Origin: Sphingobium sp.
Lineage (GTDB): Bacteria > Pseudomonadota > Alphaproteobacteria > Sphingomonadales > Sphingomonadaceae
Assembly (NCBI GenBank): GCA_009360885.1
Contig: SPEL01000001.1
Span: 434,001 to 498,000 of the forward strand
DNA: 64,000 nucleotides
Direction: 5' to 3'
A model generated the notes under the pieces. It did no database searches. It worked only from the letters and a program-made list of their open reading frames with translations, and was not told the DNA's origin. The position numbers and the translations under genes are program-made. This document shows positions 1 through 19,925 of the stretch, piece after piece (position 1 is the first letter of the stretch; each line of letters starts with the position of its first letter).

Positions 1-1
1 G

Positions 2-1312
2 GCTGTCACGGCTGCGCGCAAAGCCTTTGATGATGGCCCATGGGGCGATTTTTCACCGGCCCAGCGCAGCAAATATATCGCCGCCATGGGTGAAGAACTG
101 AAACGCCGCGAACCGGAACTGGCCCGTGCCTTTACGGCGCAAGTAGGCGGTCTGGCCAGCTTTGCCCCACAGATGGTTGGCGGGGCAACAATGGTGTTCA
201 ATAATATCGCTGGCCTGTGTGATACCTTCCCCTTCGCGGAAAGGCGGCCCAGTATGATGATTGATACTGCCATTGTTACGCGCGAACCGGCCGGGGTTGT
301 CGTCGCTATTGCGCCATGGAATGCCCCTTATTCCATCATGTCGTCCAAAGTAGCTTATGCTTTGGTGGCGGGGTGTACCGTGATTATGAAACCGTCACCC
401 GAAACCCCATTGGAAGCCTATATAATTGCCGAGGCAGCCGAAGCGGCCGGTATTCCCGCCGGGGTTGTTAATCTGGTTTGCGGTGGGCGGGACGCGTCTG
501 ACCATCTGGTGAATAATCCCGGTGTTGATAAAGTCAGCTTTACGGGGTCCACTATCGCCGGAAAACGTATCGGTGAGGTATGCGCAGGCCGTATTGCCCG
601 CTGTACCTTGGAACTGGGCGGTAAATCTGCGGCCATCATCCGCGATGATTTCCCGATAGAAGCCGCAGCGGCCATATTGGGCAACACGATTACAATGATG
701 AGTGGGCAGGTTTGCGCCATGCTCAGCCGTGCCATTGTTACGAAAAGCCGCCATGACGAACTGGCCGATGCTATCGCCAAAGTAATGCAAGGCGTTAAAA
801 TTGGCCATAGCGATGCACCCGATACGCAATTGGGCCCGGTGGCGATGAAGCGGCAGCTTGAACGGGTGGAGGACTATATCGAAGATGGCCGCAAAACGGC
901 TGATCTGGTAACCGGAGGTAGACGCCCTGCCCATATGAACAAGGGCTATTTCATTGAACCGACCCTGTTTGCCAATGTCGATAATCAATCCCGCATCGCG
1001 CAGGAAGAAATTTTCGGCCCTGTCCTTGCCCTTATTCCTGCCGAAGATGAAGCCGATGCCCTGCGGATCGCCAATGAAAGCAATTTTGGGCTGAACGGCG
1101 CGGTGCTGACTAATGATGCCGACGCTGCTTATCATATCGCGCGCAAAATGCGGACTGGCGGTGTTGGGCAAAATGGCCTCCGGATGGAGTTTAACCTTCC
1201 CTTTGGCGGCTTTAAGCAATCGGGCATTGGGCGCGAAGGTGGAGAAGAGGGGCTTTGGTCCTATTTAGAGACGAAGACGATATTGCTGGATGCAACACCG
1301 ACATCTCTCTGA
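2..1312 (+). CDS. Aldehyde dehydrogenase, 5' end cut by window edge
   Basis: NAD(P)-dependent aldehyde dehydrogenase family, oxidising an aldehyde to a carboxylic acid. The reading frame is open from the first bases of the window (it begins AVTAARKAFDDGPW, typical of the N-terminal third), so the true start lies outside. The conserved Asn-containing motif APWNAP, the catalytic-glutamate motif LELGGKSA, the catalytic cysteine in GQVCAM (codon at 713-715), and EEIFGPV and PFGGFKQSG near the C-terminus are all present, so the visible part looks active. It runs convergent to the TonB receptor downstream. The substrate cannot be read from sequence; the neighbouring stilbene-cleavage-type and O-demethylase genes make an aromatic aldehyde plausible. 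Confidence 0.93.
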   Translation, partial: AVTAARKAFDDGPWGDFSPAQRSKYIAAMGEELKRREPELARAFTAQVGGLASFAPQMVGGATMVFNNIAGLCDTFPFAERRPSMMIDTAIVTREPAGVVVAIAPWNAPYSIMSSKVAYALVAGCTVIMKPSPETPLEAYIIAEAAEAAGIPAGVVNLVCGGRDASDHLVNNPGVDKVSFTGSTIAGKRIGEVCAGRIARCTLELGGKSAAIIRDDFPIEAAAAILGNTITMMSGQVCAMLSRAIVTKSRHDELADAIAKVMQGVKIGHSDAPDTQLGPVAMKRQLERVEDYIEDGRKTADLVTGGRRPAHMNKGYFIEPTLFANVDNQSRIAQEEIFGPVLALIPAEDEADALRIANESNFGLNGAVLTNDADAAYHIARKMRTGGVGQNGLRMEFNLPFGGFKQSGIGREGGEEGLWSYLETKTILLDATPTSL

Positions 1313-1407
1313 TTGTATAGAGGGGGGCATGCGGCTGTCGCTGTCCCCTTTCTCGTCGCTATTCCCGCCTGAGGTGATGCACTATATTTCGCATCTATGG
1401 CGTTACT

Positions 1408-1450
1408 ATGGACAGGCGGCGCTATGGCCTGTCCATATTGGTGTTTTTTG
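1408..1450 (+). terminator. Probable terminator of the aldehyde dehydrogenase transcript
   Basis: A perfect 10-bp inverted repeat (ATGGACAGGC / GCCTGTCCAT, loop 9 nt) is followed a few bases later by TTTTTT on the plus strand. It lies 95 bp after the aldehyde dehydrogenase stop codon. Confidence 0.6.
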
Positions 1451-1508
1451 ATTGCCACTGCTGCCTTACTCTGGCGGCATGATCGGGATAAGACAGCATG
1501 GAACAGAC

Positions 1509-1556
1509 AGGCCAGCCAGTCATAACCAAGTCAGGAATGATGGTCTGGCCTATATT
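1509..1556 (+). terminator. Second hairpin with T-run, plus strand
   Basis: AGGCCAG and CTGGCCT enclose a further pairing (CCAGTCAT with ATGATGG, one bulge), followed by TATATTGTTTTTT. It is another plus-strand terminator-like hairpin, about 60 bp after the first and just before the end of the convergent TonB receptor gene. The two hairpins together may insulate the convergent genes. Confidence 0.45.
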
Positions 1557-1561
1557 GTTTT

Positions 1562-3841
1562 TTAGCGAAGAGTGGCGCGTACTGTGATGCCATAGGTTCT
1601 TGGTGGCCGAATATCCGCATAAAATAATGTAGGATCGCCGCCAATTTGCCGTGGCAGCGAAAATGGGTAACGATAGCCACCTGAATAAATGGCCTGATTG
1701 CCGATATTGCGGACCCAGCCTGTTACTGAAAACCCGTGTCGTGACTCAAATGTAAGGTCAGCGTCAAATGCGGCATAACCATCATCATAGGCCGATGAGA
1801 TATAATCGGGGCTCAGATACATGCTGCTGGCAAATTTCATGGAGGCGGCGGGTATAATATGATCTCCGCTGCTCAGTTCGATTGGATAGTCATATTTGAC
1901 GGAACCGGTCCATTTGGGCGCATGGGGCAGAGGCATCCCTGAACAATCAATCCTGTTCGTCGCAAGGGCCGGGTTTATAGGCGTCAATGGGCCAATGGCG
2001 CAGGTCGTCGCCAGTGGTGAATAGCCAAAAGAGGCCGCAGGACCGGCACTGACAGCAGTATATACGAAGCTGTCATATTTGGTGTGAAGATATTCACCAT
2101 TAATACGCAGCGTACCTGCCCCAATTTTGGCCATAATATCAAGATTTGCGCCGTATAATGTTGCTGCGCCAGCATTAGTCGTCAGGAGGCCTGTGCCCCC
2201 ACTGGGAAGAACACCAAGGAAGCGTTCCTGCTTATCATCATATTTCCAATAAAATCCTTCAATGTTGATTTGAAGATTATTATCAAGAAATCTGTTTCTG
2301 GAACCTATAGTATAAGCAGTAATTTTCTCTGGTTTAAAATTGTTATTCGGTGCCGTTACGCTGGGATAAAAACCACCGGCTTTATATCCGGTAGAGACAG
2401 TCGCAAAAAGCATGTTCCGGGGCGAAAGATCATATTCCAGACCAGCGCGAAAAGAGATATTATCATCCTTACGGCGGCCAAAATTATCAGTAATCGTGAG
2501 GACCGGCAGGGTTGCTGTACTAATGCCGTTCTGGCCTTTTTTGTCATTGGAATAACGCAGCCCGCCAATGATCCTGAACTGTTCGCTCAGGCTCAAATTC
2601 GCTTCGCCAAAGAAGGCATAAGCCTTGGTCGAAAGCGTGGTTTGCACATGGTTCTGCTGAATTGGGCGCGCGAGCAGCGTATAGTCCTGCGTTTGGTCCT
2701 CATCAAAATAATAGGCACCGATCACCCATTTTAACCGGTCACTTTCATTTGAAAGCCGCAATTCATAGCTTTGCTGCTGCGCTGTTTCTGCCGTTCCGAA
2801 ATAGAAACCGGGCTGATAGGTCAGGGTGCTTGGTTTTGTGTCCCGATAGGCGGGGAGGAAGGTCAGATTTGCGAAACCAAGATCAATGTCAAGCTGGGCG
2901 CTGATCGCAGCAATTCGCGTATCAACAAAACCATTGGTAGTGATTTTGTCGGGGCCAATCAGAGCGGCAGCGGGTGGAGGGGCTTGCGTTGGGCCAGTCC
3001 ATGGATCATGCGGCTGAGGCTGAAGGGAGGAGCGAAAGGCACCGCCAGAACCGCGTCCGTCCAGTTTCATATATTCCCCGACAACCAGAAGCGACACAGT
3101 ATTAGTGGGCTGCCACAGGACGCTCAGGCGCGAAGCAATGTCTGACTGATCGTTATAACCGTCGGTCAAATAGCCATCCCTTTTGGTGTGCTGGACAGCG
3201 GCGCGAATGCCTAATGTATCGGTTACTGGCCCTCCTACACCTCCGCTAAGGCGCAAGAGGCCGTAATTGCCGATATCGGCTGAGAAATCGGCCTCCAGCG
3301 CTTTGCTTGGGCGGCGGGTAATGAGGTTGATGGCGCCGCCACTGGCATTGCGGCCATATAATGTGCCTTGCGGGCCTTTGAGAACTTCAACGCGATCCAG
3401 ATCAAAGAAAATTGCGCCAACACCCGCAGGGCGTGAAATGAAAACGCCATTTAAGTTATAGGCAATAGAGCTGTCTGAGTTTGCATCTGTTGCGAAACTT
3501 CCAACCCCGCGAATATAGGTTGAGATATTCTGGCCTGATGATGCAGAAGTCAGGCTGGGCACGGCATTTTGTAAATCTGCCACCTTTGTTATGCCCTGAT
3601 TCACGAGGGCGCCACCATCCAGAACTTCTATGGCAAGGGATGATTTCTGAACCGACTGTTCCCGCCGGCTTGCTGTGACGATAATGTCAGAAATGCCAGA
3701 ATTACTGACTGATTTCTCTCTATATTGCTCGTCTTCTGGTGACGTATTTTCAGAATTAATAATGTCGGCATGGGCAATGATAGGAGTTGCTGTGCATATA
3801 GCAAATGCAAAATATGATATGGATGTTATAAATTTTCTCAT
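1562..3841 (-). CDS. TonB-dependent outer-membrane receptor
   Basis: Outer-membrane receptor that would import a bound substrate using TonB energy. The start at 3841 is preferred over 3856 because a GGAGAGG ribosome-binding site precedes it and it begins directly with a signal peptide (MRKFITSISYFAFAICT...AHA). A TonB-box-like stretch (SDIIVTASRREQS) follows, then the plug domain (VEVLKGPQGTLYGRNASGGAINLITRRP) and a beta barrel ending in the aromatic/basic C-terminus YGITVRATLR. About 759 residues, normal for a receptor without an STN signalling domain. It sits in the same orientation as, and 73 bp after, the carotenoid-oxygenase-like gene, so probably imports the substrate of that cluster. 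The ligand is unknown. Confidence 0.93.
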   Translation of the reverse strand: MRKFITSISYFAFAICTATPIIAHADIINSENTSPEDEQYREKSVSNSGISDIIVTASRREQSVQKSSLAIEVLDGGALVNQGITKVADLQNAVPSLTSASSGQNISTYIRGVGSFATDANSDSSIAYNLNGVFISRPAGVGAIFFDLDRVEVLKGPQGTLYGRNASGGAINLITRRPSKALEADFSADIGNYGLLRLSGGVGGPVTDTLGIRAAVQHTKRDGYLTDGYNDQSDIASRLSVLWQPTNTVSLLVVGEYMKLDGRGSGGAFRSSLQPQPHDPWTGPTQAPPPAAALIGPDKITTNGFVDTRIAAISAQLDIDLGFANLTFLPAYRDTKPSTLTYQPGFYFGTAETAQQQSYELRLSNESDRLKWVIGAYYFDEDQTQDYTLLARPIQQNHVQTTLSTKAYAFFGEANLSLSEQFRIIGGLRYSNDKKGQNGISTATLPVLTITDNFGRRKDDNISFRAGLEYDLSPRNMLFATVSTGYKAGGFYPSVTAPNNNFKPEKITAYTIGSRNRFLDNNLQINIEGFYWKYDDKQERFLGVLPSGGTGLLTTNAGAATLYGANLDIMAKIGAGTLRINGEYLHTKYDSFVYTAVSAGPAASFGYSPLATTCAIGPLTPINPALATNRIDCSGMPLPHAPKWTGSVKYDYPIELSSGDHIIPAASMKFASSMYLSPDYISSAYDDGYAAFDADLTFESRHGFSVTGWVRNIGNQAIYSGGYRYPFSLPRQIGGDPTLFYADIRPPRTYGITVRATLR

Positions 3842-3914
3842 TTTCCTCTCCAGCATTTGTTTTTAATTTATTATTTTGAATATTATTTGATTATCATGTT
3901 ATGATATTATGGAA

Positions 3915-5315
3915 TTATCGATTTGAAATAATGCCGGGTTGAAACATCCCGTGAAAAGCCATGGGCAGATCAAAAGGTAATCTTATCGTTGCGACCGGGG
4001 GACGGTCTATGTGCATCGCATCGACGATCAGCAGGTCTGCTCGGTTTTCCTCCGGGCGGTTGACCACGCAGAGCAGCCACCCATCCCCCTCGGGGGCATC
4101 CGTCATGCGGGGCACGAAAATAGGCTCCTGAGTGCGGGCTCCGGGCGTCAGATGCTCGTCCAGCGACAAGGTCTCCCAGTCCAGCCGAATAATGCCATTG
4201 CGCGATTTGCCATAACCATAACGATAGCGGCTCATCTGAAAACGCTCATCCAGCCTCGGCATTTCGCCGACTGCATTGGGAAAGGGTTGGACAGCGACGG
4301 GGGCATTATGATTGCTCAGGTCAAAACTGAGCCTTGTCATGGTAGCCAGACCCATGACCGGTTCCGTCACATTGCCAGACTTATCCTTGAAAAATGTGAA
4401 AGGGTTGCCGGGGGAAATTGCCGCATCGAAATGAACAATGTCGCCTTCACTCCATGCGTTCATGACGTGCCCCATGAAGGCATGGGGAACTTCGAACCAG
4501 CGCATATCCGCCACTGTTCCGGTTCTGGGCATGATGCCGTAAACCGGGTTCTGATTGGGATCATAAGCATAGAAATCGCCACCAGCTCGCGCGCCATCAA
4601 TATCGACAACCAGCGGCATGACGGGGAATATCACATGATCGCGGGTAACGGCGAAATCGTGACAAATGCCCGGAAACGGGGCCTTAAACTCCTCATCACG
4701 AATGAGTTCACCGTCCCGGCTGACGACGTAAAGTGCCATTTCTCCTTCGAAAAGCTTATGACTGAACAGCCCAAATCCCCACCATTCGCCGGTTACAGGA
4801 TCAATTTTGGGATGGGCCGTCATCGCCAGCCCTTTCAGCTTTCCATCAAAATCATATTCACCGATTGTCGTCAGGGTTGCGGGATCTATTTCGGTGGGAT
4901 GGCTATCCTCGCGCAGGGCGAATAATTTACCATGATGGTAAAAACCATATGTGTTGGCGGTGTTATCGCGGTTAGTATTCGCAACAGATGGATCATCAGT
5001 ATAGGGGTTACGATACGCACCATAAAGGCGTTTACGTGCCCGTTTTTCAGTAAGATATCGTTCTGTCTGCACGTAGCGGCACCGGAAATCGACATTGCCA
5101 TCTTCAAAGTAAAAGGCAGACACGATGCCGTCACCGTTGATGATGACGTCGCCTTCAAGGGTGGGATAGGCTCGGTCCGGCCCTACCCTGAAGAGCGCGC
5201 CATTCAGTTCTTTCGGAACTGTGCCGATGACTTCACAGTCATAAACATCGGCTTCGAAACGAAGAGTTTTTTGCTTCTGCGCGTAAAAGCTATCGATCAG
5301 CAAATGTTCGGTCAT
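3915..5315 (-). CDS. Carotenoid oxygenase family dioxygenase (lignostilbene-dioxygenase-like)
   Basis: Non-haem Fe(II) dioxygenase of the carotenoid cleavage / lignostilbene dioxygenase family, which cleaves an olefinic C=C into two carbonyls. About 466 aa counting from ATG 5315; the frame is open further upstream but that extension is not family-like. The four iron-binding histidines are visible at about H168 (TAHPKIDP), H219 (CHDFAV), H283 (FMGHVMNAW) and H455 (AFHGMF). Tyr101 (GAYRNPYT) and Arg135 (LFALRED) appear to sit where lignostilbene dioxygenases have the phenol-binding Tyr and Lys; that alignment is from memory. No signal peptide, so cytosolic. The neighbours (LigM-like demethylase, aldehyde dehydrogenase, TonB receptor) favour a stilbene or related lignin-derived substrate over a carotenoid. 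Confidence 0.9.
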   Translation of the reverse strand: MTEHLLIDSFYAQKQKTLRFEADVYDCEVIGTVPKELNGALFRVGPDRAYPTLEGDVIINGDGIVSAFYFEDGNVDFRCRYVQTERYLTEKRARKRLYGAYRNPYTDDPSVANTNRDNTANTYGFYHHGKLFALREDSHPTEIDPATLTTIGEYDFDGKLKGLAMTAHPKIDPVTGEWWGFGLFSHKLFEGEMALYVVSRDGELIRDEEFKAPFPGICHDFAVTRDHVIFPVMPLVVDIDGARAGGDFYAYDPNQNPVYGIMPRTGTVADMRWFEVPHAFMGHVMNAWSEGDIVHFDAAISPGNPFTFFKDKSGNVTEPVMGLATMTRLSFDLSNHNAPVAVQPFPNAVGEMPRLDERFQMSRYRYGYGKSRNGIIRLDWETLSLDEHLTPGARTQEPIFVPRMTDAPEGDGWLLCVVNRPEENRADLLIVDAMHIDRPPVATIRLPFDLPMAFHGMFQPGIISNR

Positions 5316-5367
5316 AATTTCATATCCAGATATAATAATGATGAAATTACGCAGCCATTGAAGGAGA

Positions 5368-6618
5368 TTAATTCTTCCTTTTTTGGGCAGCATTCGATTG
5401 ATTTTTTGCGTTCTTCAGTATTTTTCTGAGCAATTCTGCGAGGGTGGACTGATCTTCCGGGCCGAGATCGTAAAGAAGATGGGGTTTCTTCTCTGACACG
5501 ATGGCAGCTTCTGCAAAAAGTTCGTTTAGTAGCCGTTGATCGTCTGTTTCCGGCGATGGTAAATCCGATTGTGCGGACATGAGGGGGGAATTGAGTGTGG
5601 GCCAATGAGGCAGCTGCACGATGCGGGCCAGAGCCGGGGGGCCGCTGGTGCCATCCCCCAAAACAATCTCCGACAAATTTTTCAGTAGTTCAATCCGTTC
5701 CGCCGGAACGAGCAGGTTCAGAAAACTGGCGGTGGCAGTATATATTTTGGGTTCAAGTGTCTGAAGAAGGTCGCGCCCGGCTTCGGTTACCCGATACCGC
5801 CGTCGCCGCTTGCTTTCATCGACGTCGATCAGCTTTTTTGTGACCAGCCCCCGTGCAATGAAGCTGGTATTTGAAAGCTCCAGCCCGATTGTTGAAGCGA
5901 TCTGGCTTTCGCCGACATCATTATGCAGTCCGATAATCAGCAATACAACATATTGCCTTATCGTCATTGTGCTATCCGCGAGGAACGGTGCGCAGCGTTG
6001 CTCGATCAACTGGATAGTGCGGCGGATGAGAAATTGCATTGAGCGATGCACAATGGTGAGTCTCTGTGAGGCATCCGGCCCCAGACCCGCCGGCCCACTA
6101 ATCTTGCCGCCACCCCGGTTCACGAGTGTAGCCAGCAAATGGATCAACCGCCCCGGTTTACCACCCAATGGGGCTTCCAGCGTCTGAATGGCGCTGCGGA
6201 AGGGCGGGAGTAATTTGCTGAAATGGGCTCGTCCTTCGGCGGTTGCGCTGATAACCTTACGCCGCCGGTCCTGCGGATCGGCTTCCCGGTTGAGCCATCC
6301 CCTTTTCACTAATGTGCTGACGACCAGACTAGTTGTGGCCTCATCCGCGGCAACCTGACGGGCAATTTCGCCCTGAGGGAAAGCGCCAACTTGCGTTGCG
6401 ATGTAAAGTACGTGCGACTGGGGCAATGTGGTTTGCAGGCCCTTTGCGGCCTGATTGAACAGGCTGACGGCCCTTTGATCGGCCCGCCGCAGCAAGAAAA
6501 ACAGGTTGGAATATAGCTGCACGAGTGCCTCGTCCGATAACTCTTCGGGCTTGCTGCCTCGACTCGGCGCCTGTTTCACTGGTCTCTCCATTTTTACTTG
6601 TTGAACATTCATTGACAT
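5368..6618 (-). CDS. Tandem-domain MarR-family transcriptional regulator
   Basis: A 416-residue regulator with two consecutive MarR winged-helix domains, about twice the usual MarR length. Domain 1 (about 30-165) contains a helix-turn-helix region (GEIARQVAADEATTSLVVSTL) and the wing DPQDRRRKVISATAEGRA. Domain 2 (about 195-325) repeats the layout with a HTH near SQIASTIGLELSNTSFIARGL and the wing DESKRRRRYRVTEAGRD. The tail (about 365-410) again looks like the C-terminal dimerisation helix of MarR proteins (LGPEDQSTLAELLRKILK). It lies 52 bp upstream of the dioxygenase gene, same strand, and is divergent from the LigM-like gene, so it probably controls both. No clear ribosome-binding site precedes the start; ATG codons at 6612 or 6591 are alternatives. 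Confidence 0.85.
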   Translation of the reverse strand: MSMNVQQVKMERPVKQAPSRGSKPEELSDEALVQLYSNLFFLLRRADQRAVSLFNQAAKGLQTTLPQSHVLYIATQVGAFPQGEIARQVAADEATTSLVVSTLVKRGWLNREADPQDRRRKVISATAEGRAHFSKLLPPFRSAIQTLEAPLGGKPGRLIHLLATLVNRGGGKISGPAGLGPDASQRLTIVHRSMQFLIRRTIQLIEQRCAPFLADSTMTIRQYVVLLIIGLHNDVGESQIASTIGLELSNTSFIARGLVTKKLIDVDESKRRRRYRVTEAGRDLLQTLEPKIYTATASFLNLLVPAERIELLKNLSEIVLGDGTSGPPALARIVQLPHWPTLNSPLMSAQSDLPSPETDDQRLLNELFAEAAIVSEKKPHLLYDLGPEDQSTLAELLRKILKNAKNQSNAAQKRKN

Positions 6619-6647
6619 GCAGTTCTAAGTTTTACAAGATGCAGTTC
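6617..6647. promoter_or_regulatory. Candidate operator: two direct repeats 22 bp apart
   Basis: ATGCAGTTC occurs at 6617-6625 and again at 6639-6647, spaced exactly 22 bp start to start (about two helical turns), in the 69-bp gap between the divergent tandem-MarR gene and the LigM-like gene. A TAAAAT (6651-6656) that could be a -10 element for the plus-strand gene lies directly after the second copy, so a bound repressor could block it. The repeats are seen directly; the operator role is inferred. Confidence 0.5.
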
Positions 6648-6687
6648 AAATAAAATCTGTAATCAAAAAAGCCGGAGAGTGACTGTC

Positions 6688-8037
6688 ATGCAAAGCCAAC
6701 ATCATCTTATTACCAATCCTTTCATCCCAGCAGCGCCGGGCGCCATTAGCTGGACGCGCTTTACCGCGCAGTTTGAACCATATGAGTTTAGCGGCTGGGT
6801 AGATGAAAGCCTGTCATGGAAGCGCACGGCCTATGTTGGTGACTGGTCACCACTCAACAACAAGGTCATCGTAAAAGGCCCTGATGCGCTCAGGTTTTTT
6901 CAGGATATTTCGGTCAACAGCTTCGCAAAATTTGAAGTTGGTCAGGCAAAGCACAGCATCCAATGTGCCGAAGATGGCAAGGTGATGGTGGAGGGGGTTC
7001 TGATGCGATTGCAGGAGGATGAACTGCTCTTCACCAGTGGCCCTGCATTCTGGACCGAATATCAGTTTAAGCGTGGCAATTATAACGCGACGCTGACCCA
7101 GCATGGCACCGATCTTTTTATAATTCAGTTACAAGGCCCCAATTCCATCCATATCCTTGAAAAAGCTACGGGCGAATCGCACCGGGATTATGGCTTTATG
7201 CGCTTTCGGGAGACCAGCATCGCGGGCAGGGCGTTCCTCTCCCTTCGGCAGGGAATGTCCGGGGAGCTAGGCTTTGAACTGCACGGGCGCGGTGAAGATG
7301 CGCTGGCTGTGCATCAGGCTTTGCTGGACGCGGGGGAGGAGTTCGGGGTGCGCCGGCTGGGTGGTCGCACAAAAATGGTGAACCATGCGGAGGCTGCATT
7401 CCCGACGCCAAGCGTCGATTTCATGCCCGCATTATATAGTGACCCTGACTATGTTTCTTATGTGGAACAGCATCATCCGGAATTGCTTATCGCCAGTCGT
7501 CTGAAAACGAGCGGAAGCGAACAGCTTACTGATATTCGACAATTATATCGGGATCCAACCGAGTTGGGCTGGATCAGGAATATAAAATTTGACCATGAAT
7601 TTGTCGGCCGCGCTGCGTTGGAACAAATTGTGGCGGCACCCAAACGCACACTTGTCTCCCTCGTGTGGAATAAGGAGGATGTCGTTGATATTTTCGCATC
7701 CCTTCTGGGGGGCGAAGAGCCTTATGAATATATGGAAATGCCGCGGGGGCTGCTGGGCACAGTTGCTATTGATAAGGTATTGATTGGCGATCGTCAGATC
7801 GGCGTTTCAACATCCCGTTGCTATAGCCATCATCTGCGTGAGATGATTTCTCTTTGTAGCATTGATGTGGATGCATCGGTGCCCGGTACACAGGTTGAGG
7901 TTCTGTGGGGGGCGCCGGGGGCGCGTCAGAAGCGTGTAAGAGCCATCGTTGCCAAAGCCCCGTTCAAGGAAGATAAGCGGCGCATTGATGTGTCGACCTT
8001 GCCATCCTATTTGAAAAAAGCGGAAGGTTCGGTCTGA
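6688..8037 (+). CDS. LigM-like tetrahydrofolate-dependent aryl O-demethylase (GcvT fold)
   Basis: Aminomethyltransferase-fold protein of 449 aa resembling the vanillate/3-O-methylgallate O-demethylase LigM of Sphingobium in length and layout. Such enzymes transfer a methyl group from a methoxylated aromatic to tetrahydrofolate, giving a phenol and 5-methyl-THF. Similar stretches include GWIRNIKFDHEFVGRAAL (LigM has a matching IGYGPFVKFDHDFIGRDAL), SLVWNKEDVVDIFASLL and TQVEVLWG. ATG 6688 is chosen because GGAG (6673-6676) is well spaced for it and much too close to the upstream GTG at 6679. The stop overlaps the start of the esterase gene by one base, implying translational coupling. The exact substrate is unknown, and other members of the family (for example DesA) cannot be excluded. 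Confidence 0.85.
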   Translation: MQSQHHLITNPFIPAAPGAISWTRFTAQFEPYEFSGWVDESLSWKRTAYVGDWSPLNNKVIVKGPDALRFFQDISVNSFAKFEVGQAKHSIQCAEDGKVMVEGVLMRLQEDELLFTSGPAFWTEYQFKRGNYNATLTQHGTDLFIIQLQGPNSIHILEKATGESHRDYGFMRFRETSIAGRAFLSLRQGMSGELGFELHGRGEDALAVHQALLDAGEEFGVRRLGGRTKMVNHAEAAFPTPSVDFMPALYSDPDYVSYVEQHHPELLIASRLKTSGSEQLTDIRQLYRDPTELGWIRNIKFDHEFVGRAALEQIVAAPKRTLVSLVWNKEDVVDIFASLLGGEEPYEYMEMPRGLLGTVAIDKVLIGDRQIGVSTSRCYSHHLREMISLCSIDVDASVPGTQVEVLWGAPGARQKRVRAIVAKAPFKEDKRRIDVSTLPSYLKKAEGSV

Positions 8038-8909
8038 TGAGTGCGCCTCAGCGTGTCGACCATCTCCGTGCGTTAGGAACCAAAATATCGCCTGAGATGC
8101 TGCAGCAAACAATGGCGCTTTTTGCGCCCTATGCAGCACGTCCGGATTCATCCTCCGGCATTATTCGGCGCGATGTTGCTTATGGCGATCATGAGCGGCA
8201 TCGGCTGGATATATTTGCGCCCCATATGGAGGAAGAGCAGGGCCTTCCGGTTGTGGTGTTCGTCCATGGCGGTGGCTTTGTTGGGGGGGATAAGGGGGCG
8301 GAGGATGCCCTCTTCTACAATAATATCGGTGCATGGGCGGTTCGTCATGGCATGGTCGGGGTTACGCTTCGTTACAGGCTGGCCCCATCGTCGCCTTGGC
8401 CCGCCGGGGCGGAAGATATAGCCCAGGCGGTGCAATGGCTGCGCAATCATATTCAGAAGGTAGGAGGGGATACAGGGCGGATCGTGGCGATGGGCCAGTC
8501 AGCGGGGGCGGCCCATGTTGCCGGATATATCGCTCATCCAGATTTAGACGCAGAGGCTTCCATTGCCGGAGCAATCATGATGTCCGGCATATATGATCTG
8601 GAGACCCTTGCGCATTCTCCACTAGAGAATGCCTATTATGGGACGGATAGCGCTCTTTTTGCGGAGCGTTCCAGCCTCACGGGCCTGGTCCGAACGTCCC
8701 TGCCGTGCCTGTTCACTCTATCGGAATTTGATCCCGATAGTTTCCAGATGCAGGCAGAGAGGGTGGTGCATGAAAATTGTCGGGTAAATGGCCGCTGGCC
8801 ACGAATGCGATATTTATCAGGGCATAATCATTTGTCCCCAGCATTGATTTTGGGGGAATTGGATGATCCCTTAAGTGCTGAGTTGGCAGATTTCATTAAA
8901 TCTGTCTGA
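8037..8909 (+). CDS. Alpha/beta hydrolase, HSL-type carboxylesterase
   Basis: Esterase of the hormone-sensitive-lipase-like alpha/beta-hydrolase family, 290 aa. The oxyanion-hole motif HGGGF occurs near residue 80 (VVFVHGGGFVGGDKG), the nucleophile elbow is GQSAGAAH, and the conserved RYRLAPSSPWPAGAEDI block is present. The aspartate in SEFDPDS and a late histidine in YLSGHNHLSP are suitable for the triad. There is no signal peptide, so it is probably cytosolic. It is translationally coupled to the LigM-like gene, suggesting it releases an aromatic substrate from an ester before or after demethylation; the substrate is inferred from context only. Confidence 0.88.
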   Translation: MSAPQRVDHLRALGTKISPEMLQQTMALFAPYAARPDSSSGIIRRDVAYGDHERHRLDIFAPHMEEEQGLPVVVFVHGGGFVGGDKGAEDALFYNNIGAWAVRHGMVGVTLRYRLAPSSPWPAGAEDIAQAVQWLRNHIQKVGGDTGRIVAMGQSAGAAHVAGYIAHPDLDAEASIAGAIMMSGIYDLETLAHSPLENAYYGTDSALFAERSSLTGLVRTSLPCLFTLSEFDPDSFQMQAERVVHENCRVNGRWPRMRYLSGHNHLSPALILGELDDPLSAELADFIKSV

Positions 8910-9124: not shown

Positions 9125-9160
9125 GGGGCCGTCTCCGTGGCGGATGAAGATTCGTCATGG

Positions 9161-9366
9161 TCATGATGCGGGAGAGTGTGCGGCACGGGTAACCGGGCCA
9201 AACCGCCGAAGGAGCAACCGCCCCGGAATCTCTCAGGCCAAAGGACCGCATCATGATACAGGCACTCTGGAAAGAGGGCGATATTTCGTCCCACCGAAGG
9301 GGTAAGCTACATATTTCCGCGTGGGAATATGCGGTCAAAGCTCTCAGGTTCCGTGACAGAGGGGGT
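9161..9366 (+). promoter_or_regulatory. Tandem glycine riboswitch (two aptamers)
   Basis: Both aptamer signatures are visible. Aptamer 1 is closed by a perfect 10-bp P1 stem, TCATGATGCG (9161-9170) with CGCATCATGA (9247-9256), and contains GGAGAG, GCCGAAGGAGCAA and CTCTCAGGCCAAAGGACC. Aptamer 2 (about 9264-9363) has CTCTGGAAAGAG, CACCGAAGGGGTAAG and CTCTCAGGTTCCGTGACAGAG. A short linker joins them, as in the cooperative glycine riboswitch class. It sits 56 bp upstream of gcvT, where it is known to turn on gcv expression when glycine is abundant. A weaker pairing (CAGGAA 9367-9372 with TTCCTG 9394-9399) close to the ribosome-binding site could be part of the expression platform. Confidence 0.96.
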
Positions 9367-9421: not shown

Positions 9422-10585
9422 ATGGGCGTTGCCGCCACTGCTGATACACAATCCGGGGATCACATAGCCCCGATGGTCCCTGAAAAATCGCCGCTGTGTG
9501 CATTGCCTCTGGATAGTTGGCACCGTGCGCAAGGGGCGCGGATGGTTGGCTTTGCCGGTTATGAGATGCCTATTCAATATGAAGGTATCATGGCTGAGCA
9601 TCTCTGGACGCGGGAGCATGCGGGCCTGTTTGATGTTAGCCATATGGGACAGATCAGCTTCACCGGCACAGGTGTTGATGCCGCGATTGAGGCGCTGATC
9701 CCCGTCAGCCTGTCGACATTGCCGGTGGGACGGCAGCGTTACTCCTTGCTGCTGAATGAAGCAGGCGGAATTCTTGACGATCTGATGATCGCGCGCCGCA
9801 GCGATGATATTTACATGGTCGTTAATGGTGCGACCAAATATGATGATATCGCATGGATGAAAGCACATCTGCCGCAGGATGTGATCCTGAATCTGATGGA
9901 GGATCAGGCACTGCTGGCTGTGCAGGGGCCAGAGGCGGTTGAGGCGCTCTCGCAGATTGTGCCGGGGGTGGAAGGCCTCGTTTTCATGCAGGCGGATGCC
10001 TTCCTGTGGAATGGCCATGCGCTGTGGATCAGCCGTTCAGGATATACGGGGGAGGATGGCTGCGAAATTAGCCTGCCCGCCAGCATTGTCACCGATTTTG
10101 CCGATGCGCTCTGTGCGCTGGAGGCCGTCAGGCCCATCGGGCTGGGGGCGCGGGATTCCCTGCGTCTGGAAGCTGGCCTGCCCCTATATGGCCATGATCT
10201 GACGCCCGAAATCAGCGTCATTGGCGCAGATTTAGGTTTCGCGATTTTAAAACGCCGCCGCGAAGAAGGCGGTTATATCGGCCATGAGCGTGTCGTCGCG
10301 GATTTGGCGGGTGGGCCGCCGGTCCGCCGTGTTGGCCTGACTATCGAAGGGCGTTTGCCTGCGCGTGAAGGGTGCCCGATCTTCGCCGGAGAACGCCAGA
10401 TAGGCCATATAACATCCGGTGGCTTTGCGCCCAGTGTTGGTGGCCCGATTGCCATGGGCTGGATCGAGGCTTCGCTGAGCGCCGCCGGAACGGCGCTGGA
10501 GATAGAAGTGCGTGGCAAACGCATTGGGGCCACCGTCGCGCCGATGCCCTTTGTGCCGCACCGCTATCACCGGGTGAAAAACTAA
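9422..10585 (+). CDS. gcvT: Glycine cleavage system T protein (aminomethyltransferase)
   Basis: T protein of glycine cleavage: moves the aminomethyl carbon from the lipoyl arm of GcvH to tetrahydrofolate, releasing ammonia and 5,10-methylene-THF. 387 aa. Typical N-terminal block ([19 protein letters not shown], then [11 protein letters not shown]), [12 protein letters not shown], and [21 protein letters not shown] in the second half. The first 25 residues are longer than in many T proteins. GGAG lies 7 bp before the ATG. First gene of gcvT-gcvH-gcvPA-gcvPB under the glycine riboswitch. Confidence 0.97.
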
Positions 10586-14987: not shown

Positions 14988-17102
14988 TTAAAATTTCGTC
15001 GTTTCTTCCAGATTCTGCTCTATTTCTTTGCGATCAATCCACAACTTTCGGAATGTTTTTGACGCTACATATTTGAGCTGATCGCTATTATGTTTGGAGC
15101 CGGGCTGGCTGCTATTGCCATAGCTCATGACGCCGACGGCCTTTAGCGGTGTTCCAAATTCCACCATGGATACCCATGTTTCACCATGAACAGGGGTGCG
15201 CTGCCCGTCCTTCATTGGTCCCCATGTGATGGTGCGGAATACGCCGGTATTCCCAAAGCCACCATTGGCGGGCAGATTCACATCGCCAATGTGGAAACGC
15301 GATACATCGCCATAAGGGCGGTCAACCGCTCCATAAAGGGTCTTCGTCTTGGCGACTGCTTGCTTCAGCATCGCGACGGCAGAGGCCGGGTTTCCAAGGC
15401 CGCGTGGCGTTTCCAGCGGATCAGACAATGTCCATTTTACCGCATAGTTAGACTGGTCCGTAAAGTTTTTCGGCGCAAAAATTCCGGCCCATGTTTCAAA
15501 TAGCAATGCGCCCCGTGCTTCAGGTTCAAACCGATGATCCCACTGCTTCAGCAGGGCAATGGCATTGACGATTTCGGGGTCCGTATTCCCCTCTGCCGCC
15601 TTGAACAGTTCCGGCAACAGCCGGTCTGCCATTAATGCGCGGGTTTCGACCTTACGCTGGATGAAATCATCAAAGCTTAATTTCGGGGTAGCATCCATCA
15701 GCTTAACGGAAAGCTGTGCGCGTTGGCTCATCGGCCCTTCGGGTGCAACATAAGCCGGGAAAGCCTTGGGATCGAGCTGACGCGGCCATGTCGCCAGCCA
15801 GGGCTGGTCATTGGCATTTTGCACAAAGCCGCTTTTGGGATCGACTACCTTCGGCATGTCCTCATAGCTATGAACATCTTTCCAGAGGGTTTTGGAAGTG
15901 TCACCCGGCACCGGTGCTGACCAATAAGCAAGGTCGCCGCTGCTATGCTTAGGAAGGATGCCATTATCGAGATAGAGTATGTGTCCGGCCCGGTCCGCAT
16001 AGATGATGTTGAACATCGGCACCTGCATGGTTTTCAGTGCCGTTTCAAATTGCGCCCAATTGGTGGCCTTACCCATATCCAGATATTGTTGCAGAGCGCC
16101 GGGACGATCCAGACCCGCCACCTTCAATGCTATTTCAGTTTTGCTGTCGGGTAGTTCAAAAACCGGCCCCTGCAGGGTGCTGCGTTGGGTGAAGCTGACG
16201 GTTTTCAGCGAGCCATCGGCCTGCTTTACCTTATAGCTTTTGACCTCTGACTTAAAGGGAAGCACCTTGCCATCAAACAGATAGCCATTGTCTTTCAGGG
16301 TGAGCTGGTAAGAGGTGAACCCTTGCATGGTGTTCACGGTATTCGTAAAGCCAAGCTCGTTGTTAAAGCCAAAGCGCAGTACAGGCAGCCCCACCTGCGT
16401 AGCGCCATACAGGCTCATGCCCGGCGCGTTCAGATGGGCCTCAAAATAGGTGAGCTGGCTGGGCGCCCATGGCAAATGCGGGTTGGCGAGCAGCATAGCC
16501 TTACCGCTGGCGGAACGAGAGGGCGCGACCGCCCATGCGTTAGAGCCACCTGCCAGATTGGTGCTGGGGTCTTTGAGGACCTTCCTATCTGATGCGACAT
16601 AGACATAATTCATCAGGCGATGGGTATGCGCCATGATGTCAACGCCGGTTAAGGGCAAAATTTTGCTGATGTCCGGGTCAATTTTATCGGGGTGGGCTTT
16701 GGCATAGGCGTTAATCCCTGCGGCAAAGGCATCCAGATTTTTGCGCATTTGCGGCGTCTGGGCTTTATACCATGTCACAGAGCGCGCAGGAACATCATTG
16801 GCGATTAACCAGCGGTCCTGTTCCTCATATTTCTCACCCCAATATTCTGCGGCTTTTGCTCGTGCCTCACCAAAGAGGCGAATGACCAGATTGCCATGCC
16901 CTTGTGCCTGCGCATAGCCAAAGCCGTAAAAAGCGCCTTCTTCGGTTTTGGCGTAAATATGAGGAACGCCGTAGCTATCCCATAAAATTTCGCCACCGCC
17001 AAAGGCCGTTTTAGCAGCCTGCTGCGCCACAACCGGGGTGGAGGCGGCTATGCCCCCAACCCCGGCCAGCGTCAGGCCCAACCATAATGTCATATTTTTC
17101 AT
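14988..17102 (-). CDS. Penicillin acylase family (Ntn) amidase, exported
   Basis: Self-processing N-terminal-nucleophile hydrolase of the penicillin acylase / acyl-homoserine-lactone acylase family, hydrolysing an amide to acid plus amine. About 704 aa. ATG 17102 is preferred over 17108 because AAGG is correctly spaced for it. A signal peptide (MKNMTLWLGLTLAGVGG...VVAQQ) sends it to the periplasm. The alpha-chain start reads DSYGVPHIYAKTEEGAFYGFGYAQAQ; the cleavage/nucleophile site is GGSNAWAV with Ser187 as the beta-chain N-terminus; ANPHLPW follows. Convergent with nothing; 15 bp after the TonB receptor, so co-transcribed with it. The natural substrate (N-acyl amino acid, peptide or AHL) is not determinable here. 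Confidence 0.92.
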   Translation of the reverse strand: MKNMTLWLGLTLAGVGGIAASTPVVAQQAAKTAFGGGEILWDSYGVPHIYAKTEEGAFYGFGYAQAQGHGNLVIRLFGEARAKAAEYWGEKYEEQDRWLIANDVPARSVTWYKAQTPQMRKNLDAFAAGINAYAKAHPDKIDPDISKILPLTGVDIMAHTHRLMNYVYVASDRKVLKDPSTNLAGGSNAWAVAPSRSASGKAMLLANPHLPWAPSQLTYFEAHLNAPGMSLYGATQVGLPVLRFGFNNELGFTNTVNTMQGFTSYQLTLKDNGYLFDGKVLPFKSEVKSYKVKQADGSLKTVSFTQRSTLQGPVFELPDSKTEIALKVAGLDRPGALQQYLDMGKATNWAQFETALKTMQVPMFNIIYADRAGHILYLDNGILPKHSSGDLAYWSAPVPGDTSKTLWKDVHSYEDMPKVVDPKSGFVQNANDQPWLATWPRQLDPKAFPAYVAPEGPMSQRAQLSVKLMDATPKLSFDDFIQRKVETRALMADRLLPELFKAAEGNTDPEIVNAIALLKQWDHRFEPEARGALLFETWAGIFAPKNFTDQSNYAVKWTLSDPLETPRGLGNPASAVAMLKQAVAKTKTLYGAVDRPYGDVSRFHIGDVNLPANGGFGNTGVFRTITWGPMKDGQRTPVHGETWVSMVEFGTPLKAVGVMSYGNSSQPGSKHNSDQLKYVASKTFRKLWIDRKEIEQNLEETTKF

Positions 17103-17117
17103 GGTCATCCTTACCCC

Positions 17118-19925
17118 TTAGAAATTAACCGTGATGCGGCCATAATAAAAGCCTCCGGTGAAACCATAGGCACCGCTGGTCGCATAGAAACCAGCCCCGG
17201 TATTTACGTTTGCCATTGCATCATTACGTTCAGGATAAACGTTGAAAAGATTATTTGCACCGATGGCGATAGAGAACAGCTCAGTTGCTTTCCAAGACAG
17301 CTCTACATCCGTGATCCACTTTGCCCCGAATTCGCGGTCAGTAGATGTGCTGTTGCCATAGCTTTTGAATGCACCATAGCGAACTACGCGGGTATTGAGG
17401 GAAACATCCTGCCAGGTTGTTGAGTTGCCCAGATAGAGTTTTGTGCGTGGCAGGTTGACCGTCATATTGCTCTGTGAAAGGCGATCGAACAGCACATAAT
17501 CCGCGCCCAGAGATGCAAGTTCACTTGGATTGTCCTTGATGTTGGTGATGACGCTCTTGTTATAGTTATAACCAAGATTCCAGTTCATGCTGATGTCATC
17601 GCCAACATTGTGACGATATGTAGCCACCACATCGATACCGCGTGTACGGGTATCGATAGCATTGGTGTAATATTGCGCGCTGATGTCCCCGGACAGGCCA
17701 TTAGCGATCAGTATGTTGGATACAGCCGTGCCCGTCAGCGTACTGGTGAGGGTAATGCGATCCTTTACCTTGATCTGATAGGCGTCAACCGTGATGTTGA
17801 GGCCGTTTAGCGGCGTCAGCACAAAACCGGCCGAGAGGTTGGTTGATTTTTCCGGTGTCAGTGGTTCTGCGCCCAAAGCAATGGCCGCGGCTGACCCTAC
17901 TGGCAAAGTCTTGATCTGAAGCAGGGTTAGTACCGGCGGATTGCCGATATTGCGGAACTGCCCGGTGGTGGATGCATAGACCTGCTGCGCGAGGGCCGGG
18001 GCGCGGAAGCCCGTGCTGACGGCACCGCGAAGCGACAGCCATGATGTGGCTGCGTAACGCGCATTGAACTTACCGATCAATGTGTCGCCGCTGTCGTCAT
18101 CATAATTTTCGTAACGGACGGCAGCACCGAGGGTCACGTCTTTATTAGGATCCCACGCAACATCACCATAAACGGCAAAGTTGTTCCGGTTCATGCTGCC
18201 CGCATCCGCCGGAGTAAAGCCCGCAGCCCCGGATGCGCCGGGTGTGAGAAGGCCAAGAGGAGACGTATAGGTGCCTGCATAATAGCTGGGTTCGTCACCC
18301 TGCAACACTGCATAACGTTCATAGCGGTGCTGAAGGCCACCGGAGACCTGCAAATTACCGCCGCCCACATCATAGCCACGGGTTAAGTCAAGCGAAGTAA
18401 CGATTTCCTTGGACTTCAGCGTGCCGACATAAAATTCTGTCGGGCTGGTCGGCCCCATTGTTGCGTTCAGTGTGCCATCGGCTCTCTGGCGTGCGCGGTT
18501 GCTGCCATAAGTGGTGCTGAGGTCAGCATCCCACCCGGCGATCGTGGCGCGCAGACCAACGGCGAATTCCAGATCCTCTTCCGCAATCATGACGCGCGGG
18601 CGGAAACCATTGGGAAAGATTTGCGGCAGAGAGTTTGCGTTGTTGGGCGCGCGGAAAGTGTAGTTGAGGTCGGATTTACGCTGGCTATAGGTGCCGAAGG
18701 AGTAGAGCTCTAAATCGCCTCCAAGATCATATTCAGCATTATAGCCAAGGTTGATGCTCTTTTGCGGCATGGAACCATAATTATAGGTTACAAGGCGATC
18801 AACGGTTGCTTCGCGCGGGTCAGGCTGTCCGCCAACCAGCGGGTAAAGGCGGATGCTGGAAGAAATCGGTTCTGCGCGGTTGGATGCTTCCTGCTTCTTG
18901 GCGCTGGCGGACACATTGAAATATCCGCGATCACCGATGCTGGTGCCCAGATTCAGCTCTGCACGGTATAATTCCCCATCGCTACGGTCAAAATTCTGGC
19001 CGGCGGAGAAGGAGGCGGAACCGCCCTGCGCTTTATCCTTGAGGATGATGTTGATAACGCCCGCAATAGCATCAGACCCATATTGGGCCGCAGCACCATC
19101 GCGCAGCACTTCGATATGGCTGATGGCAGAGGACGGGATCATGTCCATATCCGCAGGAACAGAGCCGTTATAGAAGGTCGATACCGCGTTGATGAGCGAT
19201 GTTTTATGGCGGCGCTTGCCGTTCACGAGAATGAGCGCCTGATCGGGGTTTAACCCGCGCAGACCGCCTGTTGCGATAACGGTTGATGTGCCGCCGCCAG
19301 CGCGCGTGGGCAGGTTAAAGGAAGGAACCAATGTGTTGAGGGCGGAAAGCACGCCTGCTTTGCCGGTGCGGTCCATTTCTGCCGCCCCGATTACGTCGAT
19401 CGGTGTTGGGCTGTCGGTAACGGTGCGCGGCTGACCACGAGAACCGGTGACGATGATGTCTGCTGCCGGTTCGTTCGCGGCTGCGGCGCCCGCACGCGCA
19501 ACCGAAGGAGCGCTGCCCTGCAAACCTGTCGCCACCATGATCGGTGCCATATTGCTATTGCCAAGGCTCGCAATCTGGACTGGCTTTGCTGGCATATTGC
19601 GCTGTGTGCTGGCTGGCACGGAAAGGGCGATCGAGTTTGCAGAGGTGATGTTAATATTAAGGCCTGTGCCTGCTATCATCTTTTTCAGGGCGCTCTGCGG
19701 CGTCATCGACCCTGTGATGGCCTTTGTGCGCAAGCCTTCTACCTGATCGTAGGGGAAAAGTATCTGCACACCCGATTGCCGCGCAAACAGCGGCATGGCG
19801 CTTTTCACTGCCTGCGCAGGGATGTTGAAGTTCTTACGGGCCTGGCTTGTTTCAGCCGTGGCGGGCGCGGCAACGCTGATAGCCACAACGCTGGCGGTTA
19901 AACCCAGAAGATGGAATGGTGTCAT
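17118..19925 (-). CDS. TonB-dependent receptor with N-terminal STN signalling domain
   Basis: 935-aa FecA-type outer-membrane receptor. Signal peptide (to about residue 24, ending ATAE), then an STN domain (about 30-105: FNIPAQAVKSAMPLFARQSG...). A linker precedes the TonB-box-like ADIIVTGSRGQP, the plug (HIEVLRDGAAAQYGSDAIAGVINIILK) and a barrel ending YYGRITVNF. STN receptors transmit ligand occupancy through a FecR protein to an ECF sigma factor, and exactly such a pair lies divergently 253 bp away. It is upstream of and probably co-transcribed with the acylase gene, so the imported molecule may be the acylase's substrate or product. The plug type resembles receptors for large organic ligands more than simple siderophores, but the ligand is unknown. 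Confidence 0.94.
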   Translation of the reverse strand: MTPFHLLGLTASVVAISVAAPATAETSQARKNFNIPAQAVKSAMPLFARQSGVQILFPYDQVEGLRTKAITGSMTPQSALKKMIAGTGLNINITSANSIALSVPASTQRNMPAKPVQIASLGNSNMAPIMVATGLQGSAPSVARAGAAAANEPAADIIVTGSRGQPRTVTDSPTPIDVIGAAEMDRTGKAGVLSALNTLVPSFNLPTRAGGGTSTVIATGGLRGLNPDQALILVNGKRRHKTSLINAVSTFYNGSVPADMDMIPSSAISHIEVLRDGAAAQYGSDAIAGVINIILKDKAQGGSASFSAGQNFDRSDGELYRAELNLGTSIGDRGYFNVSASAKKQEASNRAEPISSSIRLYPLVGGQPDPREATVDRLVTYNYGSMPQKSINLGYNAEYDLGGDLELYSFGTYSQRKSDLNYTFRAPNNANSLPQIFPNGFRPRVMIAEEDLEFAVGLRATIAGWDADLSTTYGSNRARQRADGTLNATMGPTSPTEFYVGTLKSKEIVTSLDLTRGYDVGGGNLQVSGGLQHRYERYAVLQGDEPSYYAGTYTSPLGLLTPGASGAAGFTPADAGSMNRNNFAVYGDVAWDPNKDVTLGAAVRYENYDDDSGDTLIGKFNARYAATSWLSLRGAVSTGFRAPALAQQVYASTTGQFRNIGNPPVLTLLQIKTLPVGSAAAIALGAEPLTPEKSTNLSAGFVLTPLNGLNITVDAYQIKVKDRITLTSTLTGTAVSNILIANGLSGDISAQYYTNAIDTRTRGIDVVATYRHNVGDDISMNWNLGYNYNKSVITNIKDNPSELASLGADYVLFDRLSQSNMTVNLPRTKLYLGNSTTWQDVSLNTRVVRYGAFKSYGNSTSTDREFGAKWITDVELSWKATELFSIAIGANNLFNVYPERNDAMANVNTGAGFYATSGAYGFTGGFYYGRITVNF

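Follow-up and report, generated by a model that had tools for sequence, protein, structure and literature searches.

In the literature considered here, lignostilbene dioxygenase (LSD) pathways act on guaiacyl and syringyl dimers and on stilbenoids. Stilbenoids with methoxy or hydroxy groups are reported as substrates, as is a butadiene derived from a lignan (PMC12607616, PMC8191317). In the pin pathway, as described for Novosphingobium rhizosphaerae LY (PMC12607616), the LSD PinU is accompanied by the reductase PinZ, the GMC oxidase PinY, the DUF3237 decarboxylase PinX and PinWV, a flavocytochrome of the cresol dehydrogenase type (PMC12607616, PMC12997858). In Sphingobium SYK-6, lsd7 is located about 5 kb from phcCD and phcFGH (PMC8191317). 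Among folate-dependent enzymes, LigM produces 5-methyl-tetrahydrofolate (5-methyl-THF), which the MTHFR of SYK-6 oxidizes to 5,10-methylene-THF (PMC12585457). For SesA, residues R81, H82, R100, R179 and H225 are described as expected proton donors, all of which except R81 are kept in all BrdA proteins, as is E189, a predicted THF contact (PMC5547118). Here, we analyzed 64,000 nucleotides of Sphingobium sp. DNA (the window; positions 434001-498000 of contig SPEL01000001.1, or C1, in the 2.93 Mb assembly GCA_009360885.1). Six genes at its left end encode an aldehyde dehydrogenase (ALDH), a TonB-dependent receptor (TBDR1), a dioxygenase of the RPE65/lignostilbene-dioxygenase family (LSD1), a MarR-type regulator (tMarR1), a protein of the GcvT/LigM fold (DMT1) and an alpha/beta hydrolase (EST1). 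We consider it probable, though well short of certain, that they form the right-hand module of a sphingomonad island of about 36.5 kb, which would catabolize a plant phenylpropanoid-type compound (a lignan, a stilbenoid or a hydroxycinnamate ester).

The original prediction of a catabolic cluster made up of these genes held for the gene list and is supported as to a catabolic role, but not as to LigM-type demethylation, for a free-standing cluster or for uniqueness. Rather than standing alone in 9 kb, the six genes are the end of a pin-like island at contig positions 406351-442909, about 27.6 kb of which lie to the left of the window. The right boundary at window position 8909 is correct, because the glycine riboswitch found at 9159-9258 (RF00504, 62 bits) heads a separate gcvT-H-P operon; membership of gcvTHP in the cluster was rejected on the same ground. 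Like the pin set, the island contains a GMC oxidoreductase, a DUF3237 protein, a VAO-type flavoprotein with an overlapping cytochrome c gene, and an LSD. At the family level only, and with PinZ taken to be of the NmrA type, the families of PinZ, PinY, PinX, PinW, PinV and PinU thus occur together. The NmrA-type protein of the island did not match solved plant pinoresinol reductases at E ≤ 1e-6. Among solved structures, YtfG and triphenylmethane reductase are closest to it, so that homology to the plant-type reductases was rejected and "PinZ family" is a family-level label only. Compared with pin, the island adds two folate enzymes of the H type defined below, a PurU, a second LSD and EST1, and also an HpaB-type hydroxylase and three TonB receptors. 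A pin-like cluster separate from the island is present on contig C3 of the genome, with genes 47-76% identical to island genes (DUF3237 47%, GMC 48%, NmrA 49%, cytochrome 49%, LSD 54%, VAO 64% and ALDH 76%, the last in comparison with the ALDH of the window).

Each of the six genes has an uninterrupted frame and matches its family in Pfam, as had been predicted. The ALDH gene (1..1312, plus strand; PF00171, 451 bits) starts 158 bp to the left of the window, at contig position 433843. TBDR1 (1562..3856, minus strand; PF00593, 134 bits, and PF07715, 47 bits) presumably serves in outer-membrane uptake. LSD1 occupies 3915..5315 on the minus strand (PF03055, 396 bits) in a frame that is open to 5393; the start is probably at 5315 and not at 5393, as an ortholog begins at the position of MTEHLLIDSF. 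tMarR1 (5368..6618, minus strand; PF01047, 66 bits, residues 64-120) is separated by only 60 bp from the divergent DMT1 gene (6679..8037, plus strand; PF01571, 120 bits, and PF08669, 30 bits). The EST1 gene (8037..8909, plus strand; PF20434, 84 bits, and PF07859, 76 bits) shares one base of its start codon with the DMT1 stop codon (TGATG).

LSD1 scored 442 bits with the lignostilbene model (NF053778, cut-off 800), 377 bits with NF053780 (cut-off 650) and 178 bits with a carotenoid model (cut-off 675). All scores are below the cut-offs, and the comparison of 442 with 178 bits bears out the predicted lignostilbene type; a carotenoid role as the leading interpretation was rejected on the basis of these scores. 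Tyr101, Asn120 and three aligned iron-binding histidines (167, 218 and 282) are kept, and a fourth histidine is seen in the alignment with LsdA. In the LSDs of Sphingobium SYK-6, which belong to the same family, Lys134 and Tyr101 are reported to bind the 4-hydroxyl group and Phe59 to stack, together holding the phenolic ring (PMC8191317). LSD1 differs from these enzymes in having Arg for Lys134 and Ile for Phe59, and in a loop after residue 394 that is shorter by 18-20 residues. The Arg is characteristic of a clade. Orthologs with 52-56% identity were found in at least 16 of 397 genomes of the family besides our own, other listed LSDs having at most 44%. All 15 aligned orthologs have Arg at this position (one of the 16 was dropped by the open reading frame (ORF) filter), whereas Lys134 is present in all 18 other aligned LSD rows, including LsdA (the LSD of locus L237 did not align). 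An LSD clade with Arg134 would offer a direct test of substrate choice in the family.

The esterase had been predicted as well. EST1 is feruloyl-esterase-like, as judged from its motifs (HGGG and GQSAG) and its predicted model (pLDDT 78): the nearest solved structure is 4zrs, a "feruloyl esterase from a soil metagenomic library" (45% identity, TM 0.89). Neighbor counts by tblastn link such esterases to LSDs of the LSD1 kind. In 15/16 ortholog loci, no more than 2.5 kb separate an EST1 homolog from the LSD1 ortholog; in the remaining one, L256, a partial match is 9.4 kb away. With a limit of 1.5 kb, EST1 homologs were found near 12/16 LSD1-type genes, 9/9 genes of an "IYK"-type clade and 0/13 other LSDs, the last group including the near-identical copies L003 and L004. 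The distance between LSD1 and EST1 in the window is 2.6-2.7 kb. An ALDH 65-82% identical to that of the window is present on 7 of the 16 ortholog loci, some of which are cut at the locus end. The predicted substrate, an aromatic compound with an ester and a C=C double bond, is strengthened by this link between dioxygenase and esterase. In the open-access literature we found no published cluster of an LSD with an esterase or of an LSD with a demethylenase.

tMarR1 had been described as a tandem MarR protein. The first domain is clear, as MarR models match the N-terminal half only. For the C-terminal half, the match to PadR was borderline (27.5 bits, cut-off 27) and those to OhrR/SlyA were sub-threshold, and BLAST detected no similarity between the two halves. 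From these profile matches, tMarR1 is likely a tandem MarR protein with a weaker second winged-helix domain. Homologs (E ≤ 1e-20) were found in at least nine places in eight other genomes among the 397 of the family. Among the matches listed, an LSD is located 4.1-4.5 kb from the tMarR1 homolog in 8/8 genomes and 8/9 places. Each of the four inspected loci (L267-L270) contains the tMarR1 homolog, an ALDH, an esterase and an LSD. The gene set is thus not unique, since LSD and esterase recur in the family together with an ALDH and either a tandem MarR regulator or a TonB receptor. L268 also carries two DUF3237 genes and a GMC gene, and by analogy its neighborhood may resemble the phcFGH/phcCD/lsd7 region of SYK-6. 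The LSD1-type locus L258 contains a TonB receptor, two ALDHs, a zinc alcohol dehydrogenase, an esterase, an LSD and SnoaL proteins; its SnoaL_4 protein, considered as a possible LdpA, matched uncharacterized proteins only.

The divergent gap contains a candidate operator (6617..6650, no strand assigned), consisting of the near-identical 12-mers ATGCAGTTCTAA and ATGCAGTTCAAA, which are 22 bp apart. At the tMarR1 start, the first of them reaches across the edge of the gap. These two copies are the only exact matches in the 64 kb window, and no exact matches to either 12-mer were found in locus L008. A two-copy repeat of this length may be due to chance. That the repeats are direct and not inverted would fit a MarR regulator with two domains in one chain.

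DMT1 had been called a LigM-like O-demethylase. The fold is in agreement with this, but the active site is not. The predicted model (pLDDT 79) has LigM as its best Foldseek match (TM 0.78, 29-30% identity), and DMT1 shares the GcvT fold and the folate-type domains with LigM and DesA. It reaches 231 of 580 bits with the NCBIfam LigM model and 248 of 800 bits with the DesA model, i.e., 40% and 31% of the respective cut-offs, neither of which is attained. Tyr247 and Arg122 are catalytic residues of LigM; at these positions DMT1 has a Lys and a gap or Gly, respectively. Compared with SesA and BrdA (PMC5547118), with positions assigned by the published spacing only and with an offset of one residue between 100 and 179, the residues of DMT1 at SesA positions 82, 100, 179, 189 and 225 are H, R, R, E and H, and it thus has the listed proton donors except R81, plus E189. 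DMT2, the second folate enzyme of the island, has the same five residues and in addition R81 and Y221, and therefore all five proton donors. Differences from SesA/BrdA are found at D95, which is Glu in DMT1 and His in DMT2, and at Tyr221, which is Lys in DMT1. A LigM-type function as the leading reading for DMT1 was rejected because the LigM residues are replaced and residues of the SesA/BrdA type are present.

Residues H82, R100, R179, E189 and H225 are invariant in eight DMT-type proteins, and the pattern H-[RK]-R-E-H was found in 91 (79+12) of 126 distinct DMT-like ORFs in the collected loci. LigM/DesA-type rows have Q82 instead. A FastTree phylogeny of 124 rows, with its root on a single long gcvT row, groups the Q82 rows into one clade with 27 members (support 82), whereas the H rows do not form a single clade (3 changes). 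DMT1 and DMT2 are both outside the Q82 clade and distant from each other. Judged by these residues, DMT1 is presumably a THF-dependent one-carbon (C1) transferase of the H82/H225 (SesA/BrdA-signature) type, and a more fitting label for it is H-type folate C1-transferase, acting as a demethylenase or a demethylase. DMT1-like genes are rare in the family, being present in at least 11 of the 397 genomes at E ≤ 1e-60. The closest relative found is from the actinobacterium Pseudarthrobacter enclensis (L057, 61-63% identity); identity is 55% to the paralog in the same genome and at most 50% to other homologs from the family. The genome has its own DesA, encoded on a different contig next to a PurU gene and the single MTHFR gene detected in the assembly.

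A demethylenase would yield 5,10-methylene-THF directly, without need for MTHFR. The genomic context of C1 genes is consistent with such a difference between the two types. We counted genes within 6 kb of DMT-type genes in loci with a flank of at least 6 kb in all, excluding six rows of neither type. PurU is near 40 of 89 H-type genes and near 13 of 26 Q82-type genes, and none of MetF, FolD and PurU is near 48 H-type and 11 Q82-type genes. At the PurU loci, MetF is also present in 7/40 H-type and 12/13 Q82-type cases (p 2e-6). For unmixed PurU loci, the numbers are 1/31 H-type versus 5/5 LigM/DesA-type (Fisher p 1.6e-5); both p values are indicative, as rows are related and the MetF profile was built from one seed. 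The pattern, MetF with the LigM/DesA type and FolD/PurU mostly without MetF with the H type, might predict methyl versus methylene transfer, and could be applied to proteins annotated as LigM-like. For DMT1 itself, methylene transfer is only slightly favored over methyl transfer in view of L057, which has MetF and the nearest DMT1 relative found. In L057 (1342-15200), Paa-type oxygenase genes are followed by the DMT1 relative, an FAA hydrolase, MTHFR, FolD and PurU, an arrangement that would amount to an aromatic cluster of an unusual, ring-epoxidation-like kind in which folate C1 units are recycled. In the Pseudomonas loci L058 and L060, DMT1 relatives (53-55%) are located by intradiol dioxygenases, FolD and PurU.

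The combination with DMT1 was also found outside the sphingomonads. Among 104 loci around DMT- or LigM-type genes (L036-L042, L057-L135 and L190-L207), two have EST1 and LSD homologs together (E ≤ 1e-15), L098 from Streptomyces stelliscabiei DSM 41803 and L115 from Streptomyces sp. MA5143a; weaker EST1 matches were seen in L041 and L104. The two Streptomyces loci share a 9.1 kb block (L098 3140-12249, L115 3138-12249) that is 99% identical with different flanks, which may point to a mobile cassette of catabolic genes. For recurrence, the two genomes are counted as a single event. The block encodes a PucR-type regulator, an RPE65-family dioxygenase, an esterase, an ALDH, an amidohydrolase, an H-type DMT and PurU, with overlaps of the gene pairs dioxygenase-esterase, esterase-ALDH and ALDH-amidohydrolase. 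It resembles the window in the dioxygenase, the esterase (41% identity to EST1), the ALDH, the H-type DMT and the divergent regulator, but differs in the PucR type of the latter, in the additional amidohydrolase and PurU, and in that no TonB receptor was seen. Since the Streptomyces dioxygenase scores higher with the carotenoid model (477 bits, cut-off 675) than with the LSD model (174 bits), the recurrence is at the family level and not at the clade level. It speaks against uniqueness of the set of dioxygenase, esterase, ALDH and DMT.

From the genes and their families, the modelled folds, the active-site residues, the DMT1/EST1 overlap and the linkage of LSD and esterase genes in relatives, we infer substrates, order of steps, co-transcription and regulation as follows. 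The likeliest substrate would carry both an ester and an aryl ether and be a lignan, stilbenoid or phenylpropanoid, a methylenedioxy group being slightly favored over a methoxy group. The compound would be taken up through TBDR1, EST1 would hydrolyze a hydroxycinnamoyl-type ester or lactone, LSD1, with Fe(II) and O2, would cleave a styryl C=C bond to give two aldehydes, and ALDH would convert the aldehydes to acids. DMT1 would transfer a one-carbon unit from the aryl ether to THF. The methylene of a methylenedioxy ring, with 5,10-methylene-THF and a catechol as products, is slightly more likely here than a methyl group. Bound in the 60-bp gap, tMarR1 would repress both tMarR1-LSD1-TBDR1 and DMT1-EST1 until an inducer binds. 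A more far-reaching proposal is rather doubtful: the genes would make up an entire pathway with its own regulation, directed at methylenedioxy-bridged lignans or phenylpropanoid esters. It would combine pin-like side-chain chemistry and lignostilbene-type C=C cleavage with demethylenation by THF-dependent enzymes (DMT2/PurU and DMT1), an LSD clade would act together with a feruloyl-type esterase, and a similar dioxygenase-esterase-ALDH-DMT set would have been assembled separately in Streptomyces. If true, coupling of an LSD to an esterase and to folate chemistry of the SesA/BrdA type would bring lignans and phenylpropanoids whose catechols are blocked within the reach of bacterial catabolism.

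Besides the spacing-based residue match and the relatedness of rows already mentioned, several observations weigh against the phenylpropanoid module with an H-type DMT1. The assembly is only about 80% complete. LSD1 lacks two of the three ring-holding residues, and the Streptomyces dioxygenase leans towards the carotenoid model. LSD-esterase loci fall in two tree clades and hence represent few independent events, not 25. H-type proteins are widespread, including in anaerobes and haloarchaea, and DMT1 departs from SesA at Tyr221. DMT1 itself has none of MetF, FolD and PurU within 6 kb. The sole unmixed H-type exception with MetF is L057, which is the nearest DMT1 relative found, so that methyl transfer must still be considered for DMT1. 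DMT1 may instead be an ordinary THF-dependent aryl O-demethylase, as originally predicted, with a methoxy substrate and 5-methyl-THF as product; the cluster would then serve methoxylated stilbenoids or esters of the ferulate type. We regard this as quite possible without favoring it: LigM is its nearest solved structure, MetF, FolD and PurU are downstream of the L057 relative, and the substrates reported for LSDs comprise stilbenoids with methoxy or hydroxy groups and a lignan-derived butadiene (PMC12607616, PMC8191317), whereas the rarity of MetF at PurU-linked H-type genes (7/40 versus 12/13 for the LigM/DesA type), the location of DMT1 outside the LigM/DesA clade, the SesA/BrdA residues and the replacement of LigM Tyr247 and Arg122 point away from it.

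The module may also consist of two unrelated units that merely touch, an LSD-esterase-type module (tMarR1, LSD1, EST1, TBDR1 and ALDH) and an inserted DMT gene for another substrate. The search for conservation of the gene set is relevant here. It confirmed the association of LSD and esterase in 15/16 family loci, but not that with an H-type DMT, which was found in none of 20 family loci around LSD1- or tMarR1-type genes; the single DMT homolog there, in L262, is of the LigM type. That the closest DMT1 relative is actinobacterial (63%), as compared with 55% for the own paralog and at most 50% for the family, suggests horizontal arrival. The overlap of DMT1 and EST1 (TGATG) and the reunion of dioxygenase, esterase, ALDH and DMT in Streptomyces argue against two units, which we consider unlikely. 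Both the LSD-esterase pairing and the dioxygenase-esterase-ALDH-DMT set appear to be more than chance, because both recur elsewhere. Very improbable is a role of LSD1 in (apo)carotenoid cleavage, with a cluster not devoted to aromatic catabolism: membership in the RPE65 family, the replaced Lys134 and Phe59 and the score of the Streptomyces counterpart would fit, but the LSD1 profile scores, the retained Tyr101, Asn120 and three aligned iron histidines, and island neighbors of aromatic-type families do not.

The part of the island to the left of the window starts with a GMC oxidoreductase (contig position 406351), a TonB receptor (408122), an NmrA-type reductase (410468), a LysR regulator (411413), a SnoaL protein (412512), a DUF3237 protein (413007) and PurU (413552). 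PurU was named by similarity: the L098 PurU matched Formyl_trans_N and ACT in Pfam, and other PurU proteins were linked to it via a profile. These genes are followed by an NAD-binding protein (414448), an SDR (415107), DMT2 (415966), a MarR regulator (417373), a TonB receptor (417990) and LSD2, a second lignostilbene-type dioxygenase (420458); DMT2, this receptor and LSD2 were assigned by similarity to their window paralogs and by family. LSD2 is above the cut-off of the NOV2 model (724 bits, cut-off 650). Next are an SDR (422066), a TetR regulator (422944), an HpaB-type hydroxylase (423714), an SMP-30 protein (425310), the VAO-type flavoprotein (426366) and the cytochrome c with the overlapping gene (427919), a protein without family (428329), an MFS transporter (428741), a cupredoxin (430133), a GMC protein (430741) and a fusion of alpha/beta hydrolase and flavin reductase (432411). 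The six-gene set then extends from the ALDH at 433843 to 442909. In the numbering of locus L008, the run of cupredoxin, GMC oxidoreductase and hydrolase-reductase fusion spans 16133-19634, and the HpaB-type hydroxylase is at 9714. Hydroxylase and fusion protein are possibly a two-component monooxygenase, the reductase being fused to a hydrolase.

A genome of the same genus (G470) has a compact counterpart of the left part of the island, with nine island proteins clustered and a second DMT. Identities to the island proteins are 77% for DMT2, DUF3237 and SnoaL, 74% for PurU, 65% for NmrA, 60% for the TonB receptor, 56% for GMC, 53% for ALDH and 47% for LSD. DMT2 is rare. Homologs with more than 45% identity are present in 2/94 genomes of the genus (our own and G470), and homologs at E ≤ 1e-90 in at least 2/397 family genomes (our own and G225, 49%).

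The assembly contains three LigB-type genes and seven RPE65-family genes altogether. One of its clusters (C4:380001-400000, L029) comprises a TonB receptor, an LSD, a VAO-type protein, a cytochrome, a GMC protein, an ALDH and an amidohydrolase, and this LSD is above the lignostilbene cut-off (855 bits, cut-off 800). An LSD gene of the NOV2 type is found twice, at C3:146763-148515 (L031 8763-10515) and at C6:40652-42400 (L032 8652-10400). The two copies are 99.7% identical over a 1.75 kb stretch in different contexts, as would be expected from a recent duplication, a transposition or an assembly effect.

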